Shown: piece after piece, positions 3,701 through 48,309 of the stretch
Position numbering within the stretch: the stretch's first letter is position 1
Layout of the letters: every line of letters begins with the position of its first letter
Source of the DNA: Physcomitrium patens
Lineage: Eukaryota > Streptophyta > Bryopsida > Funariales > Funariaceae
Assembly (NCBI RefSeq): GCF_000002425.4
Contig: NC_037265.1
Span: forward strand, 10,580,707 to 10,644,706
Direction of reading: 5' to 3'
Length of the DNA: 64,000 nt
Program-made: the position numbers and the translations under genes
The notes under the pieces: generated by a model
The model's database searches: none
Seen by the model: only the letters and a program-made list of their open reading frames with translations
What the model was told of the DNA's origin: nothing

Positions 3701-4257
3701 TTACCCTCCCTTCTATGAACGAGTTCCATGAGAAGCGGTTATCATATGTTGAAAAAATCTATGATATGACGAATTGTATTTGCCACATACTCTGATCTTT
3801 GTTCTCTATGAAGATGATTGATAGGGCCTCTCAACCATCTGTAGTGTCCCATACGAGGGCGGGAAGACCACCCAATTATTTGACTCTTTTTAGGCCTTCA
3901 TAACTTCCTTCGAATAGAATATTTGGAACACCATCAGGAGTTGTTCCTACCTCTAGTAAAATCACCAAACATCGAGAGTCCCTTCTCAAATCGTGATACC
4001 AAACGCGTTGTATCTCACCATCTATTCAAGGAAGAACATGTCGTTCTTGAAGATCTTTATCTCGATTGCGTCGTCTTGAAGGTTGTGACAATCGTAATGT
4101 CTCGTCCGGCATGGCAGCAAATGAAGGCTCTTGAGTTGAATCCGCTGGTTGTTGGTTCTCCATCTCTTGAGCGCCACTACTACAATGAAGCTACGAACAA
4201 GAATTGAAAGTAGAATGTTATCTTGCCTAGATGTTGTTTCTTTTATAAAGAAGGTTT
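3701..4257 (-). other. Element A 3' untranslated region
   Basis: About 560 bp between the chromodomain stop (4258-4260) and the LTR. No coding domain is seen on either strand; the open frames here run antisense to or beyond the polyprotein and look accidental. Confidence 0.7.
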
Positions 4258-5706
4258 TCATCTTGATTTTGATGGATGTCGTCGATGAAAAGCCTCCACC
4301 GCCTTTGTTGCATTTACAAGATTCTTTATTGGCTGCCATGTGCGTTCACTAATACCATATCCGTGCCAATGGACAAGATATTCTAATTTATTTTGGCGTC
4401 GCCTTGAATCTAAGACTTCTTCTACTTCAAACTCTTCATTATTGTCCATTTCTATAGGAGGAGGTGGAGCTTGACGTCTTCTTGGTATGTCCACTGTCTT
4501 GTATGGTTCAAGAAGAGACACGTGGAATATTGGATGGATTTTCATTGACTCCGGTAGATATAAAGAATATGCAATTGGATTGATTTGTGTAGAAATAGAA
4601 AATGGTCTCAGCCTTTGATAGTCCAACTTGTCACAAGGACGAGTGGTCTTGATATTACGATGAAGTAGCCATACCTTATCACCCAAGAGGAATGGTGGTT
4701 GTTCCTTTCGATAGACATCCGTATTGACCTTTTATTGTTCTTGAGCCTCTTTTAACTGCGCCTTCATCGTTGCATGTAGCTCTGATAAATGAATCGCCAA
4801 ATCTTTCGCAGCAGGATTATCAACTTTTTAAAAGTCAAAAGTATTAAGTCATGGATGATAACCATAATTAGTAAAGAAAGGTGTTTGTTTTATAGAAGAA
4901 TGTACCATGTTATTCTAAGCAAACTCTGCCAATGGCAAAAGAGTTGTCCAATCATCTTGTTGGTAGTTAATGGTACATCTTAAATATTACTCCAAAACTT
5001 GATTAACACGCTCCGTTTATCCATCAGTTTGAGGATGGAATGCCGAAGATAGTTTTATATCTACTTTAAGAATCTTGAAAAGAGTCCGCCAAAATCTTGA
5101 TACAAATTGAGTTCTCCTACCTGATATAATATCCTTAAGTAATCGATGATAGCGATAGATATTGTCAAGAAAGAGCTTAGCTGTTTCTTCACTTGTGATA
5201 GATTTTGTACATGGTACAAAATGTGCCATCTTGGTAAAACGATCTACTATCACGAATATAGAATCATAAGAACTTGAGATTGGAAGATTTGTCATGAAGT
5301 CCATAGAAACAGAAGACCATGGTTGTTCTGGAATGGATAATCGCTGAAGAAGTCCAAAGGGTCGATGACGAGGAGTTATTGATCTTGAGCAAACATCACA
5401 TGATTGTACAAAATCTTTGATTGCCTTCCATATTTGAGACCACCAAAAATCCCTAGATATCAGCTCCAAAGTCTTATTATATCCAAAATGTCCTGTTGTT
5501 GGGAAGTCGTGATGAGCTTGAAAAACACGTAAACATGCTTCTCCTTCTGGAACATATAGGCGTCCTTCAAAATAGAGTAGGTTGTTCTTGAATTCAAATT
5601 TAGAGGGATCATGAGATTTAGAAGAATTATTCTTGATATCATGAACAAGAGGGTTTGAAGACATACTTAATTGGACTTGCTTAAGAAAAGTTAAATCAAC
5701 AGTCAA
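4258..5706 (-). pseudogene. Element A integrase with C-terminal chromodomain
   Basis: The zinc-binding HHCC region is present as HHDF..GHFGYNKTLEL..CDVC. The core follows with SMDFMTNLP (first catalytic Asp), but the second site reads SGRRTQF where the family has SDRGTQF, so that aspartate is lost. After a stop at 5017-5019 and others in 4687-5016, the frame reopens with the GDKVWLLHRNIKT motif and a chromodomain (EFEVEEVLDSRRRQNK, then EYLVHWHGYGISERTWQP). In this family the chromodomain steers integration towards particular chromatin; here it is well preserved although the integrase core is dead. All segments share one phase. Confidence 0.9.
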
Positions 5707-8971: not shown

Positions 8972-9532
8972 TGTCAAGGAGAAGAACTCGATAAAAAAAT
9001 AATCCAAACAAGTGAGCCTTCACTCAAAGAAATGTAACAAAATATAAATAAATAAGTTTGTATATTGAAAGAGAAACTAGAATGGCTATTGCCAAAAGAC
9101 AAGAAAATTAGAGACCCTTGAAACTAGACTAGAAGCAAGAAAGGAGTTGACAAGAGTGAAGAAGGCTTCATTCTTGTCTCTATATACAGTATCTAACTAG
9201 GGGCTATATGACGACATTCCATAGGACCTCCAATATGTGTTGACTTTGTAGGACACATGCCTTGACGTACAAGGTAAGATTTTCTATGCATGGGCTACAT
9301 AGTTAGCTTGATCTTCAAGCTAATAACATGTGTGGCACATGGCCAACTTGTTGACCACGTTTTTAATCCAAAAAGTCAATTAAAGACACCTATGAAGTCA
9401 AAGCAGCGTCTATGAAGCTTTTAGGAAGCTTCCATATTAAATACTATAGAATTAACTTACTTTTACCTACTTTTATTTACTTCTACCTATTTGTATATGT
9501 AATTACTAGCTTACATGAGTATGTCCATGACA
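8972..9532 (-). repeat. Element A 5' LTR
   Basis: 561 bp, TGTCAAGG at the inner edge and ATGACA at the outer edge, followed by the TACAC duplication. It is nearly collinear with the other LTR, with scattered, mostly transition differences. A TATATA at about 9181 lies in the promoter-like middle part. Confidence 0.95.
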
Positions 9533-9537
9533 TACAC
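9533..9537. other. Target site duplication of element A, right copy (TACAC)
   Basis: Second copy of the 5-bp duplication. After it the interrupted B LTR resumes with ATAGAAAAACAAG, exactly as in the intact copy at about 14300. Confidence 0.95.
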
Positions 9538-10326
9538 ATAGAAAAACAAGTCTAATATCCTCTCACACATGTTTCACTCCAATCCAACCAGTAGATTGTA
9601 TGAAATCTTAAAAAACCTTACTTGACCTAAAATTCTACTTTCTTAGACCTTGATCCATTTAAACCTCAATATCCTTCAATTCAACCATTAGATCGAGCTC
9701 AAATTCACGATTTATATTAAACACAACTATAACCATAAACCTACAAAATTCCACCTATAGATCTATTACATAACTCTTGAAATCATCCAAAACATAAACC
9801 CTATTTTATTTCATAAAATCCAAATCATCCGAAACAAACCTTGACTTTGCAAAGCTATTACAAAGTCAATACAGATCCAAATCACCCAAAATCAACATTT
9901 CTAGAAATCTTTTTCAATCTTCTATTAAACTCCACTCTCCGATTTGCCAAAGAGTCCTTGAATCGCTGTCAGAGCACGGTTTTGTGCCTCGGGGTCTTAT
10001 TTCAATCCAGGTTCATAACCAGTCCTCTTCAGGTATCAACTTTCGTCTTCTTGAGGTAATTTTTACTAATTTTGCACTTCTAACTCCTCCCTACATATGC
10101 CTATATCCTTTATTTTTCTAATCTATCTTATTTTGCCTTATTTATGGCCTTACAAAGTAAATAGAAGCATAGTTTGCAAATAGGCAGCATTAGCACCTTT
10201 AATTTTTCTACCCTTTGACTAATATCTATTTTTCCAAGATAATTTGCTACAATATTTTTGAAGTGAGATCCTAAAACCTGATATTTTCTTCACCCTTTTA
10301 CTTGTTATCCATGTTACATCATGACA
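9538..10326 (-). repeat. Element B 3' LTR, inner part
   Basis: 789 bp collinear with 14300-15088. It ends ATCATGACA at 10326; on the minus strand this is the LTR start TGTCATGAT, directly preceded by a polypurine tract (complement of 10327-10337, GGGGAGGTGGA). Confidence 0.92.
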
Positions 10327-13351: not shown

Positions 13352-15088
13352 TGTCGTAATATGTGAGGTCTTGCTTGAGAATGCTCCGGGCACCTGGCTG
13401 TGGAAAGAAGAATGGAAATTGCAATAACAAAATCCTAATTCTAATAGAATACTAAAAATGCTCTAATTAGACCATAATAATACTAAGTAAGCTTAATCAA
13501 ATTCAAAAAAGCCTCAAAGAAATTTCAAACAAATAATAAGAATTCTTAAAGAAATATTAAAAGGATCACAAATATCACTCAAATATATCTCAATTCAATC
13601 TTAATTTAATTCTAGTTAAAATCCTATTGAACTTCATTAAAACTTTAGGCCAAAACCAATTGAATCTTAAATCCTAATAAAATCTTAATCCCTGAATCAA
13701 ACCCTAAACAAACCTTAAACCAAATCCCAACCAAATCCTAACCAAATCTTAACCCAAACTCTAAAACCTAAATAAAATCCTAACTAAATCTTAAACCAAT
13801 TTCTAATCCAAATCCTAATCAAATCCTAAACTAAATCCTAAATCCTAAATAAAACCCTAACTAAACCCTAAATCAAATCCTAATCCAAATCCTAAACCCT
13901 AAATCAAATCCTAATCAAATTCTAAATCCTAAAAAAAATCCTAATCAAATCTTAATCCTAAACCAAATCCTAATCCAAACCCTAATCAATCCTTAAACCA
14001 AATCCTAACCAAATCCTAACCAAACCCTAAACCAAACCCTAGTAATTCCTACAACAGATTTAAACCTCAATAATTAATTAATAAATCGTTGATCTTAACT
14101 CAAAATTTTCATACTTCTTAAAAACTAAGTTCAAAACAAGCACAACAAAAATGAAAAGGATCGGAGTTACCAAATTGACGATATCTTCAAAAATGTGCTC
14201 GGGTATTGGCTCGCCTCCTTCTCCAATCTTAATGCCAATTTTCGAGAGCCAATATCTCTCCTTTAAACTGTTCGATTCATCTTAAAATTCTCATACACAT
14301 AGAAAAACAAGTCTAATATCCTCTCACTCAAGTTTCACTCTAATCCAACTAGTAGATTGCATGAAATCTTTAAAAACCCTACTGGACCTAAAATTCTACT
14401 TTCTGAGACCTTGATCCATTTAAACCTCAATATCCTTCAATTCAACCGTTAAATCGAGCTCAAATTCACGATTTATATTAAACACAACTATAACCATAAA
14501 CCCACAAAATTCCACCTATAGATCTATTACATAACTCTTGAAATCATCCAAAACATAAACCCTATTTTATTTCATAAAATCCAAATCATCCGAAACAAAC
14601 CTTGACTTTGCAAAGCTATTACAAAGTCAATACAGATCCAAATCACCCAAAATCAACACCTCTAAAAACCTTATTCAATCTTCTATTAAACTCCACTCTC
14701 CGATCTGCCAAAGAGTCCTTGAGTCGCCGTCAAAGCACGGTTTTGTGCCTCAGAGTCTGATTTCGACCCAGGTTCATAACCAGTCCTCTTCAGGTATCAA
14801 CTTTCGTCTTCTTGAGGTAATTTTTACTAATTTTGCACTTCTAACTCCTCCCTACATATGCCTATATCCTTTATTTTTCTAATCTACCTTATTTTGCCTT
14901 ATTTATGGCCTTACAAAGTAAATAGAAGCATAGTTTGCAAATAGGCAGCATTAGCACTTTTAATTTTTCTACCCTTTGACTAATATCTATTTTTCTAAGA
15001 TAATTTGCTACAATATTTTTGAAGTGAGATCCTCAAAACATGATATTTTCTTCACCTTTTTACTTGTTATCCTTGTTACATCATGACA
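13352..15088 (-). repeat. Element B 5' LTR (intact, 1737 bp)
   Basis: Begins TGTCGTAATATG and ends ATCATGACA. It is uninterrupted and thereby shows what the split 3' LTR looked like before element A landed. It carries the telomere-like array at about 13660-14045. Confidence 0.92.
13660..14045. repeat. Telomere-like degenerate array, second copy
   Basis: Same AAATCCTAA/AAACCCTAA units as at 2505-2885, in the same place within the LTR. Confidence 0.85.
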
Positions 15089-41539: not shown

Positions 41540-44500
41540 ATGGAAATGGCGACCTCCGAGCCTTCGTCTCCGCTGCCACAGCCAGGGTCATCTGACCAAC
41601 AGCAGATTGCCAGCGCTAGCATTCTTCTGCAAATTGTGATGCTCGGTTTGGCCTTTGTCTTAGGTCATGTACTGCGACGGCACAAGATTTACTACATCAA
41701 TGAAGCGAGCGCATCTCTTCTCTTAGGTTATTTCACAGACCTTTTTCTCTGCCCTACGTAAGTTGCTACGTGTTCTAAGGATTAAGTTGGATTTTGATCC
41801 GCGTTGTCGAGGAGACTTTTAGTACTTCGTCTGGAGGTGCTCGTATCTATTTGTGGCAACGCAACTTGTGTCTCATGTGCGACTTAAAGCCTTGGCTTCG
41901 GGAATCAGGAGATTGTACTTTGTGTAGTTTCTAGTACTTAATGTACTTACTGTATGTTTTTGTGCGTGCTTTTACCGTTGGTTGCGTACTTAGTTTAGGC
42001 GACGAAAGCACTTTCATCATGTTTAGGATGGTCTTGACATGCTACATTACATCACAACATATTATGTACATTCCAACTAAGAGAATCTTACTGAATTCCG
42101 AAACCATTTCTGTGAAACTGTATAATCTTGAGGACGTTCGGTTTGAACCTCATAGAAAGCTAATTTTTTTTGGAATGGAATTGACGGTCAACATTTTGTG
42201 TTTTGTCATGGATGTTTGTGGCGTTGATAATTATTTTTATAGTGCTTGATTTTAGTGAGAGAATGCAGTGTCAAATCTTTTTTGGTGTATCAACTGGTGG
42301 AATTGGTGCATTGTTCGCTGTTGAATGCTTTTATTTATTTATTTTTGCGCACGCCTGCGTCCTCGTATTGCAAATGAAGCGATATGAAATTTTCGACAAG
42401 AGGTGATGTTTGTGTTATCTAACAAAATGTGTCTTGTTGTCTGCCAGGACTTTTTGTTGGTTTTGTTGCGAACGTGTCGAACACTGAGGCACATTTTAGG
42501 TATCGTTTCTGCTTTTGGTCTTCTGCCCTCTAATGTCTACTTGGATGATGCTGCAGGCTTGTCTCATTTTGTGGTGGACATTTCTATTATGTTGTATTCG
42601 TCTCTTCCACCTGATTACTTTGTTGCTGTTGCTGTGCAGGCAATGGTTCAATTTTCATGAGGAGTTCTTTTTGTTATTTTTACTTCCACCAATTATTTTA
42701 TATCCTACACACCCTACTCTACATGTTTTTATGACAAGACGTCTGCCATTCCATCTCAAAAATGTCTTTTGTGCTTAGCTTCTAGTGAAATCTTTTGTGG
42801 TGTTTTTGAGAAGCTTTAATGATGAAGTTTATGGTAGTCCGTGGCTTACGTGGTGTCTTCTGCTTGGGTGTCTGACTTTAAGACTTTGCATTGCCTTGAG
42901 TGTTTTTGGGACTCGGACATGATTATTATCCTTGACCTTGAAATTTTACTGAATCCGGCTTCAGCCTGCAACCGGTATAGTTCTTGACCTTTGATACGAT
43001 ATTCGTCTGTCAATGTGAATTTTTACTGGCCAGCCGTTACTATCGAGGTGTCTATTAAATAGATAATGTACAGTGTATTAGACACTCTGACTTATGTTGT
43101 TCGTCTTTCAGAAACCATTTTTCTCCAACTTTGGGGCTATTTGTACCTTTGCGATACTGGGAACTTTCATTACGTCAATTGTTACAGGAATTTTAGTGTA
43201 AGTGTTTACTTCATCCTCCACTACTTTTTGTTTTGTGTATGAATAACCGCTCTTCAATTTCGTCGGTTTATACCTCTTGCGTGCTTCTTTGGTTGCAAGT
43301 AAGTGTATTTCCTTGAATATTTTGCTTTTTCACCTGCGTAGGAAGTTCGGATTTCTATCTTTTTTTCTTAATTTGAAATTCCTCTGCAGGTACCTTGGTG
43401 GATTGTTCTTTCTAATGTACAGGTTGCCGTTTCATGAGAGCATCATGTATGGTGCTCTTATTTCGGCAACTGATCCTGTCTCAGTATTAGCCATCTTTCA
43501 GGTACTAATGACCATCTCAGTTTTGCCTAAAGAGTCGGACAGCAATGACCTCATCTGACCATCATTGATTCCAGTAGTATATAGTAGAGTGATAGTTGGC
43601 TCTCTGCTAGTAAGCTTTTATTTTGCCTGTGGACTTGGTATATCAAACGTGTTCAACAAAAGAACCACCAAAGCCATTGCTCTTTCTGCAGAGCTCTCTT
43701 TCTCCTGTATAACTAATTCTTAGATAGCTCCTGAATAAAATGTGGCTTCGTTTTGCTCTGTTGTATGAAAATTTTGCTGACGTTCTAGATTCTGAATGTA
43801 TTCCACACTGACCAAATATTATTTCCGTATTCAGGAGCTTGGAACAGATGTAAATCTCTACGCACTTGTGTTTGGCGAGTCTGTTCTAAATGACGCGGTG
43901 CGTAAATCTATATTTGATTATATTGTATTCGGTAATATGGTTCGTAAGTTGTCCCTGTAATCGAATCAGGTAGATTGCTGACGTCAATGCTTCTGTTTGA
44001 TTAAATTGCTATCATTGTTTCTGTTTTTGGAGATGTTGGAAGAAGTTGGTTTATTGGTAACTTTTGGATAATGTACTCTGTTTTTGGCGCTGGCAGGTCG
44101 CTATTTCACTGTACAGGTTAGTTACATTTGCTGATAAAGCATATCAAAATTTTCTTCTAGTGCATTCTTACTTCTACACGGTCAGAATAGGAAGCTACGT
44201 GGTCTGCCAATAGGGAACAATAGTTGTGGTATAAGTCTACAACATGAACTTGTATGTGTAAACCACGTACATTTGACCCCAATACATGATGCTACTAATA
44301 TATGCAGGACCTTGCTGGCTGTTAAAAATCATCCTCTGGAAACACATGGTCTCATGTCTGCAATCTGGAGTTTTCTGGAGATATTTGTGGGGTCACTTTC
44401 ATCAGGTTCATCCACGTGACCGAGTTGCATTTTTTTTGTATAACTTTCTCAGATTTGAAGTGTATTTCTGTATCTGACCGTCTCTATTTCTTGCATTGAT

Positions 44501-47500
44501 GCAGGAGTTGGTGTAGCATTAATATGTGCATTGATATCCTTTCTGTACATTTAAGAAAGTTTTGCAAATTGTCATTTTCTACACGTTGTGGATTGCATCT
44601 TCTTTCTTTAGGAGGACCAGAGTATGTGTGCACTTGTCATAAGGTTGTAGGTCCGCATACGTAGGACATCGCTGTTACCTGAAAACTACTACTTTTTGTT
44701 TGACTTCCGATTATATTATCTTGAAATACGAATAAAATAATCTGTCTTTGACGTGTGTCAGTGCACGTGACTATTACTATCGTGCACATTAGTGTGAGAC
44801 ATAATTTGTAGCTTGTTTTCCTGGAAAGGTGGACGGGACATGAAAGGAAAAATATCATGGGGATTGTTGATAACTGTAGCTTTTGGGCGTTTATATTTAC
44901 GGTCAGAGTTTGGAAGGGTTAATTAGTTTGGTTCGTAGTAGCGCCCATCGTCCTTCACGTGTGAAATATCGTGCTTGAAAATGTCGGCGTATATGAAATA
45001 TCCTTAACTCGACTTACCTCTTCAAGTATTCAGGGCTAGCGGTGCATGGGTAAGTTCCTGTTTTACAAGTAATTTTCAGTACAATTACAATGTTTGGCAT
45101 ACGGTTATTCTTGTGCAGATTATTTATGGATAGATTCTCAAGAGTTTTGTATTCTCTATCTTTTAATCTTTTTTTGGTTGTGTGAACTTGGGTCGCAGCT
45201 TACAGAATCTGGAGTGCTGTCTTGTGGTCCTCTTTCCATATTTTTCGTAAGTATCAATTCACAGTACTGTAAAGTTTGAAGTTGTTTCGACGACCTCGTC
45301 TTATTTTGCTTTATTTGTCCGTAGATAGTTGTAATTGAATAAATTTTCACTGATGTAAAGTAATCCTTTTCATGGCAATATGCTGACCGATCAAATTTTT
45401 ATTTTGTAGGTACATGCTTGCCGAAGGTCTTGGCTTATCGGGGATTGTGGCTATCCTTTTCTGTGGTATTGTAAGTCGCTAAGCTTTCAATTATAGCAGC
45501 AGCTGTTTTGGTGGGACTTTGAGTTAGGCAATGACTTCAGATTTTCTCTGGCTGTGCCCGATCTTTGCTTATGGTTGCAGCAAATTTCTACTTTAATAAG
45601 GCATAATTTATCTTAATTTATTCTTACGAATTATCTTGTCTAGTTTTCAATGCGCTGATTAATTGATGCCGATCGTTGTAACCAACTATTGATGGTTGAA
45701 GTTGAATTTATTAGATCTTTTATTTTCTGTGCAGTTGATGAAGCATTACACGTTCCCCAATCTTTCAGAGGGTGCACAGGCATTTACATCAGGATTCTTT
45801 CAGTTGATCTCATCGTTGGCTGAAACCTTTGTGTATGGGTTCTCCTCTCTTGAATTTAGTTGTAGAATTGTAGGCTAGATCAGGTACACTTTCAGAAGCT
45901 GTTCATTTTCTCACTCGTTATCCTCGATGATATTTTAGGCTGAAACAGTTTGATTTGCAGTATATGGATGAAAAAGTAGATTCTCATGATTGGCATGGAC
46001 GTGATTCTTTGTGTATGCTGCAGGTTCATATATATGGGTATGGATATTGCTATCAAATCCCACAGCTGGTCTCATGTTGGCTTCATTTTCTTCTCAATCG
46101 TGTTCATTGTAATAGCAAGGTATGAATTGACGGGTATTTTGTGGATTTTAGCTGCCTGGAATTGGAAAGATAATTTATCTGTTATATTATAGCGTTAGGA
46201 TGCGATAATTTGTTCACTATAAGATGCTTGAAATGTTTTTGTTAATGGACGGACATGTAGTGAACTGACTCCACCTGCATACTTCATGCTGTGTGCATTG
46301 CATAATCTGAGACCTTTCAGTCTTTTTGCTGATTTTTCAGGGCTGCAAATGTGTTTCCATGCGCCCGTCTTGTGAACATGCTACGCCCTGCATCGCGACA
46401 GATCCCAATAAATCATCAGAAAGCTCTTTGGTTTAGCGGTCAGTAAATTTTTTGTTTAGAACTTATAGTTACTTCTAATACATATTTAGTTAAGTGTCGG
46501 ATAGCTTTGTCGAAACGTTGAAAGGACGTGAGATATCTTGGTGTTTTTTGGTATGGTCTCATCAGCAAGCAATTTGGTGAACTATACGTGCAGTTGTGTG
46601 AACTTAGCGTCTCATTATCCTACCCGATTTTATATGCTGTTCATCCTGCTATTTTCGCATCTCAGAAGTGTAGCGATGATAGAGTTGGTATATTAACATG
46701 CTAGCATCATGTCCTGCTTTTTTGTTCTCTGGTTGGACAGGGTTAAGAGGAGCTATGGCTTTTGCATTGGCATTGCAGGCCGTTCATGACTTGCCAAATA
46801 ATCATGGTGAAATCATTTTCACTGCCACTACGGCGATTGTCGTTTTGACTGTGAGTTCGTCTCACCAATCTCCCACCGGGTTTGATTGGAGTAGGTTTGG
46901 ATTGCAAAAACTCGATCTCGATTCATGGTTCTGAGGTTTACTCTAGGCATATCGTAAACTGAGGAGTGTTATCTATCCAATTAGTATTTAGATATGATAT
47001 TGACTCCAGGTTTGGCTCTCGTTGTGAAGAATGTGAAGACTTGTGTTTTAACTACCATCTGGAAAGGCCTTTGTAGATTAATTGCTAGCATAGTGGCGAA
47101 TTTAATAGTAAGTTGCCTGCTGTGTAAAGTCGTATGTTTACTCTGGCTACTCATGGTTCGACCACTAGGGATTCTGGTTGATATTTGGGATGAATGCAGG
47201 TTCTTGTGATAGGTGGCTCCACTTCAACTATGTTGGAAAAATTGGAGGTTGTGGGCGACGCTCACGGCCATGAAAGTTTACCTGAAGTGAGGCTGGGAAT
47301 CAATTCGACACAAATTTGAATACTGCATTCAACGGATATTATTGAAATTAAAGAATGAACGTGTGATTCAGATATGAAATTGCTGGTGATTTACAAATAA
47401 TTATGGCACTGATCTAGGTATCTGACTTGGGTGATGTCATTTGGATGTTGTCGCTAGGGTGACGAGGAGGAAATGGAAGGTCTTACTACCAGTTATGATA

Positions 47501-48309
47501 ATGAGCATGGGAATCCCGATTCCGTCGATCTCTTAACCCAGAAATTTCAAGAGTTGCGCAGGAGGTATTGTTTACTCCGCCTTTATAGTTTGACGTGCAA
47601 ATTGCTCAACTTATGCAGTGCCCACTTTGCGAATGGGATTAATGCTGCAGTGATTATGTTCAGATTTGATGACATTTAGTTTTAATTGTGTGAGCTCATG
47701 CTTCATGAAATCGTAAGTTGACATTTGTGGATCTACATGAAACAGTACTGCAACGTTTACTGCAATCGACAATAATTTCTTGAAGCCATTTTTTACCAAG
47801 GAAGATAGGCGCAGGAACTCCACAGACCAAGCTCCTAATGGTAAGTTTAGAGATATTCTTGTGAGGTCGTGTGGTGCTTTCGTTGTTGAATAAAAACATG
47901 TTCCTTGGGTTCGCACCGTCGTTGCTTAGGGGGGGCTCTTTTGTTGCCCTATTCGTCTGGTCGTCTTTGCTTGTGTTTTTAGTTAGAGTGAATTGGATGA
48001 CAAATCTTAACACTTTGTTTGGTAGGACACCGGCAGGCAGACTCCGAGAAGGACTCATCTCAAACCCAAGGTAGAAGAGGAGGCATCTCTTCTTTGAACC
48101 CTGACATGGAGCGTGGAATGCCTGATTCGTCCCGGTTCTGGTGGCAAAATTCTGCAAATGTACAAAATAGAATTAACTCGACAACACCTAGAGAAGATGA
48201 AAATATTACACGGCAGAGCTCTGTTCCTGCCCATTTGCAGCCGAAGGAGATAAAACAACAATCAAATGCTGCGAGGAACGATAGAAAAAACAGGCGACCC
48301 TCATTTTGA
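41540..48309 (+). CDS. NHX5/NHX6-like: Endosomal Na+(K+)/H+ exchanger, NHX5/NHX6 class, 21 exons
   Basis: Exchanges Na+/K+ for H+ across Golgi/endosome membranes in known homologues. Coding exons: 41540-41726, 42448-42499, 42640-42699, 42950-42974, 43112-43197, 43390-43501, 43835-43897, 44097-44116, 44308-44405, 44505-44533, 45018-45049, 45199-45246, 45410-45470, 45735-45832, 46024-46119, 46341-46438, 46741-46850, 47200-47286, 47458-47564, 47746-47840, 48026-48309; 1848 nt, 615 residues, frame kept throughout. Landmarks: [12 protein letters not shown] (89-100, amiloride-site region), [13 protein letters not shown] (D165), [11 protein letters not shown] (N193, D194, ion-binding pair), [12 protein letters not shown] (389-400). 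About a dozen membrane spans, then a soluble tail from about residue 435. Start: ATG with G at -3 and +4. The final 94 residues, rich in Q/N/S/R, extend beyond the usual length. Introns 3 and 10 are AT-AC; all others GT-AG. Confidence 0.97.
42700..42949 (+). other. U12-type AT-AC intron (NHX intron 3)
   Basis: The donor is ATATCCTACA, the acceptor TTTTAC, and a branch-site-like TCCTTGAC lies at 42929-42936 with its A (42935) 14 nt before the acceptor C. Removing exactly this segment joins PPII to FESGFSLQP in frame, which is the sequence expected in this exchanger family. No GT-AG pair gives that join. Confidence 0.93.
44534..45017 (+). other. U12-type AT-AC intron (NHX intron 10)
   Basis: The donor ATATCCTTTC matches the minor-spliceosome consensus, the branch site TCCTTAAC at 45001-45008 is a perfect match, and its A (45007) is 10 nt before the acceptor C. 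Removal joins ALICAL to LFKYSGL in frame, as expected for the family. Confidence 0.95.

Follow-up and report, generated by a model that had tools for sequence, protein, structure and literature searches.

The stretch at 44534-45017 on the forward strand is almost certainly a genuine AT-AC intron of the U12 type, and the second such intron in the gene for an endosomal NHX5/6-type Na+/H+ antiporter, as judged from its signals, from the paralogues of the gene and from the minor snRNAs of the same genome. It lies in the window (the whole stretch of 64,000 nucleotides of Physcomitrium patens DNA that was analysed), is intron 10 of its gene, interrupts the coding sequence in phase 0 and is 484 nt long. 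The preliminary description had placed an AT-AC intron here, and the donor, the branch, the terminal AC and the next exon are indeed all found where that description put them. It had also called this intron the second of its kind in the gene, which is borne out by the first, intron 3, at 42700-42949.

Signals of intron 10 and the gene that carries it

The donor stretch ATATCCTTTC begins at 44534, and the 5' splice site within it, ATATCCTTT (44534-44542), matches RTATCCTTT at nine positions out of nine. The branch site ATCCTTAAC (45000-45008), with TCCTTAAC at 45001-45008, matches TTCCTTRAY at eight positions out of nine, an A replacing the first T; the "perfect consensus" claimed earlier therefore holds for the donor and not for the branch. 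The intron ends in CGACTTAC, with the AC of the 3' splice site at 45016-45017, and 10 nt separate the branch A from the end of the intron, the distance originally given. Its removal joins exon 10 (44505-44533; 29 nt), the 3' end of which reads GTGCATTG, to exon 11 (45018-45049; 32 nt), which begins CTCTTCAAG. The frame is kept, and the junction ..GVALICAL to LFKYSGL.., which had been proposed from ALICAL onwards, is found inside an open frame of 615 residues. Since the bases flanking the junction differ, it cannot slide, and moving it would change the spliced RNA. The branch region at 44998-45008, ATATCCTTAAC, itself resembles a U12 donor; the same overlap of branch and donor-like sequence, ATATCCTTGAC, is seen in the copy of the first AT-AC intron on another contig, C9 (see below).

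The gene occupies 41540-48309 on the forward strand and has 21 coding exons. Its model, assembled by eye and checked by script, comprises 615 codons plus a stop codon and is free of internal stops when spliced; the 20 introns are divided into 18 GT-AG introns and two AT-AC introns (introns 3 and 10). The single Pfam domain of the 615-residue protein is PF00999 (Na_H_Exchanger; 3e-67). Its top solved relatives are NHE6 (7.7e-73) and then NHE9, with bit scores of 249 for NHE6, 244 for NHE9, 160 for NHE3, 157 for NHE1 and 82 for OsSOS1 of rice. By these matches, drawn from a comparison set of solved relatives that holds no plant NHX5/6 sequence, the protein is identified as an endosomal antiporter of the NHE6 type, for which we take NHX5/6 to be the plant name. 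The alignment to NHE6 is free of gaps across the ALICAL-LFKYSGL junction, the closest gap (two residues) lying eight residues downstream.

Intron 3 (42700-42949, forward strand, phase 2) has the donor ATATCCTACA, which agrees with the consensus at 7/9 positions, and the branch ATCCTTGAC, which agrees at 8/9. It is followed by exon 4 (42950-42974; 25 nt), and the alignment to NHE6 is gapless over the residues of this exon, ESGFSLQP. Four exons of the gene are very short, namely those at 42950-42974 (25 nt), 44097-44116 (20 nt), 44505-44533 (29 nt) and 45018-45049 (32 nt); three of these adjoin the two AT-AC introns, and their lengths of 25, 29 and 32 nt recur in the C9 paralogue.

Intron 2 (42500-42639) has GT-AG ends with a U12-like donor, GTATCGTTTC, that matches at 8/9 positions. 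It was considered as a further U12 intron and dropped because its match to the U12 branch is only 6/9, and it is kept as U2-type; conversion from a minor intron may explain its donor, or the resemblance may be due to chance. The remaining 17 GT-AG introns were likewise rejected as U12-type, the donor match being at most 7/9 in each. Intron 1 (region 41727-41763) is read with an unusual donor, GTTATTTCAC, with a standard GTAAGT 31 bases downstream, at 41758; its frame was chosen on homology judged by eye. Elsewhere in the window, a direct repeat of 300 nt (9531-9830 and 14292-14591, 96% identical) is spaced by 4761 bases. Scans of the window yielded no Rfam match and no tRNA.

Paralogues in the genome

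A protein search of the genome (470,438,890 bases in 101 contigs, with the window on contig C13) returned the gene itself and pieces on contigs C9, C7 and C3; further contigs gave weaker matches. The C9 and C7 copies were modelled with a spliced aligner that penalizes AT-AC introns above GT-AG introns, and because the query was the protein of the window gene, these models are not fully independent of that gene. The alignments stop at query residues 489 (C9) and 426 (C7), which leaves the C-terminal parts outside the models. Identity to the window protein is 315/485 aligned residues for C9 and 228/424 for C7.

On C9, where 19 introns were placed, each of introns 1-17 of the window gene has a counterpart at the same position and in the same phase. 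AT-AC introns stand at both of the homologous places, in the same phases, as ATATCCTTCA..ATAC and ATATCCTTTC..GCAC. The counterparts of exons 10 and 11 in C9 are equal in length to those of the window gene (3932-3960 and 4122-4153 of L026). The two copies of intron 10 are identical in their first 10 bases; they differ in length (484 nt in C13 and 161 nt in C9), and the matches within their interiors are short and chance-like.

The C7 copy (15 introns placed) matches 14 of the first 16 introns of the window gene, introns 10 and 12 being absent. The first AT-AC intron is retained, again with AT-AC ends, and the coding stretch at the place of intron 10 is uninterrupted in the genome. The C7 site from which introns 10 and 12 are missing lies on the reverse strand of L027, at 4960-5023 in reversed coordinates. 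C9 and C7 have in common a phase 0 intron at residue 349 that does not occur in the window gene, and one C9 intron, at residue 355, was called GC-AG by the aligner.

The copy on C3 has decayed: several of its matched stretches contain stops, and it is broken off within exon 10 (L024, reverse strand, about 4248-4265; L025), about a dozen bases before the expected AT-AC donor, where it gives way to unrelated sequence. By eye, the sequence beyond the break looks like a copia-type retroelement.

With the window gene counted and the C3 copy excluded, the first AT-AC intron is thus present in all three readable copies (with the same place and type in C9 and C7) and the second in two of the three. 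Intron 10 is therefore not universal in the family, since C7 lacks it. Its distribution could reflect either a loss from C7 or a gain in C13 and C9.

Minor spliceosome and rival readings

The genome yielded matches to three of the four minor snRNAs, all above the family cut-offs: a U12 gene (94.8 bits), two U11 candidates (69.8 and 43.0 bits) and two U6atac candidates (79.9 and 61.6 bits). No match to U4atac was found in the genome, and control genomes likewise gave nothing; nor did the genome match the U11-48K zinc finger PF05253, a model of 25 positions for which the sole control match was in an archaeon. The stretch TCCTTAACTC (45001-45010) pairs with the genome's own U12 snRNA at 10 of 10 positions with one A bulged, the RNA carrying GAGTAAGGA and intron 10 its complete partner, UCCUUAACUC. 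In four other AT-AC introns that were examined, this complementarity extends to 7 or 8 of 10 positions. Both U6atac candidates contain AAGGA, which is complementary to the UCCUU of the intron 10 donor. The U11 candidates start with AAAAAGGG and AAAAAGGA, from which we infer that base pairing with CCUUU in the donor would be possible.

The reading of a donor by U11 and U6atac, with the bulging of the branch nucleotide by U12, is the established pathway of minor splicing. Following this pathway, the donor ATATCCTTTC would be recognized by U11 and then by U6atac, U12 would pair with UCCUUAACUC in such a way that the one bulged A acts as the nucleophile of the branching step, and the 3' splice site would be the AC ten bases past this A, so that exons 10 and 11 would be joined in frame. 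It is presumably in this way that intron 10 is spliced in cells.

The motifs by themselves are no proof of intron 10. On the two strands of the window, ATATCCTT occurs 11 times as against a mean of 5.5 in 100 shuffles, five of which reach 11; TCCTTRAC occurs eight times in the window as against a shuffle mean of 3.9, two shuffles reaching eight. Loose combinations of donor, branch and AC number six per strand, intron 10 being one of the six on the forward strand and the others lying at other places in the window; intron 3, the donor of which matches at 7/9 positions, falls outside this set. What is beyond chance is that the motif pair coincides precisely with a coding boundary that homology defines and is repeated at the same place and in the same phase in a paralogue. 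A chance motif match as the source of intron 10 was ruled out on position, frame and conservation in the paralogue.

Such motif pairs arising by chance, together with the existence of a nearby GT, might favour a U2-type GT-AG intron that uses other sites, for which the AT-AC match would be a coincidence. The preliminary description had pointed to a GT at about 44544; the GT is present, at 44545 instead. All junctions between donors at 44510-44619 and acceptors ending at 44899-45048 (exon starts at 44900-45049) were enumerated for five kinds of ends and scored against the uninterrupted C7 paralogue exon and the NHE6 segment. Of the 302 donor-acceptor pairs tested, 23 are in frame and without a stop, and the 44534-45017 junction comes top with a score of 74, the runner-up scoring 64. 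The five GT-AG junctions among the 23 rank 18, 20, 21, 22 and 23 and lose conserved residues, which rules out GT-AG alternatives within the range. The GT at 44545 gives no in-frame GT-AG junction there; its sole surviving junction has GT-AC ends, reaches 45013, puts five extra residues into the protein and is tied at ranks 7-9. A U2-type intron at neighbouring sites is accordingly very improbable. Just as improbable is the removal of intron 10, AT-AC ends included, by the major spliceosome. A few AT-AC introns are removed in this manner, and AT-AC ends alone leave the class undecided; against this stand the full U12 donor, the 8/9 branch, the 10 nt between the branch A and the end of the intron and the pairing, at 10/10 positions, with the U12 RNA that this genome encodes.

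If the U12-type reading is taken, the consequences of failing to splice can be read from the frame. Retention of intron 10 brings a stop after six codons, at residue 251, and retention of intron 3 brings one at residue 126; therefore, a full-length antiporter needs both minor introns removed, and its expression can soundly be inferred to depend doubly on the minor spliceosome. If exon 10, exon 11 or the two together were skipped, the frame would shift and soon meet a stop; the skipping of exon 3, which adjoins the first AT-AC intron, would keep the frame. A further reading would have intron 10 be both U12-type and a regulated switch, often retained, such that the early stop would lower the amount of antiporter when the minor spliceosome is limiting. 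The stops at residues 251 and 126 would suit such a switch, as would the exons of 25, 29 and 32 nt that adjoin the AT-AC introns and are repeated at those lengths in C9. However, an early stop upon retention is common to any intron, and passages of PMC7367187 cite evidence against the excision of U12 introns being slow enough to matter much, its speed there being of little importance. A switch is thus conceivable and rather unlikely. Slightly more doubtful still is the idea that the C13 and C9 genes, with two AT-AC introns and exons of 25-32 nt, would place endosomal ion and pH control under a double gate of minor-spliceosome activity, with C7 being less gated.

Comparison with known minor introns

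The literature search found no publication that lists intron 10, within the parts of the papers that were available. This absence is not proof that the intron is unpublished, because the minor-intron survey PMC10639083 covers P. patens, which is named in one of its legends. A word search within PMC2846911 and PMC6717393 found no passage on exchangers or SLC9A.

The remark in the preliminary description that U12 introns had been reported in exchangers of this family agrees with published work on Arabidopsis. According to the passages available of PMC4892727, u11-48k plants, which are mutant in the minor spliceosome, show defective splicing of the U12 introns of NHX5 and NHX6, and NHX6 is among the U12-intron transcripts tracked in a study of U11/U12-31K (PMC3422263, in part). 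These Arabidopsis genes are of the same family by name and have U12 introns, as does the moss gene; the positions, number and AT-AC type of those introns do not appear in the passages of the two papers. In animals, excerpts from three further papers describe genes of the NHE family with minor introns, like the moss gene: a minor intron of SLC9A9 is retained in Roifman syndrome (PMC4667643), SLC9A6 is handled as a minor-intron gene (PMC6865273) and SLC9A8 is named for cryptic sites near its U12 intron (PMC8329584). U12 introns also cluster in genes, as stated in part of PMC7367187. Given this clustering and the Arabidopsis introns already published, intron 10 is to be seen as an ordinary, well-formed example.

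The analysis supports, to the base, two AT-AC introns in one moss gene and leaves the general view of minor introns unchanged. That a single genome has two copies of the gene with a pair of AT-AC introns and one copy with a single such intron is a modest extra; this series lends itself to the question of whether regulation is gained with the second minor intron or that intron is merely inherited.

A parallel in land plants is the U12 intron of CBP20, the position of which is conserved in ten species, Physcomitrella included, according to the portion of PMC5932401 consulted. Like intron 10, it combines AT-AC ends with a U12 branch. In constructs, the AT-AC introns of CBP20, that of Physcomitrella among them, were spliced poorly (same source, in part), and good signals are therefore no guarantee of efficient splicing. 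However, CBP20 is a different gene and has one such intron, as against two in the moss antiporter.
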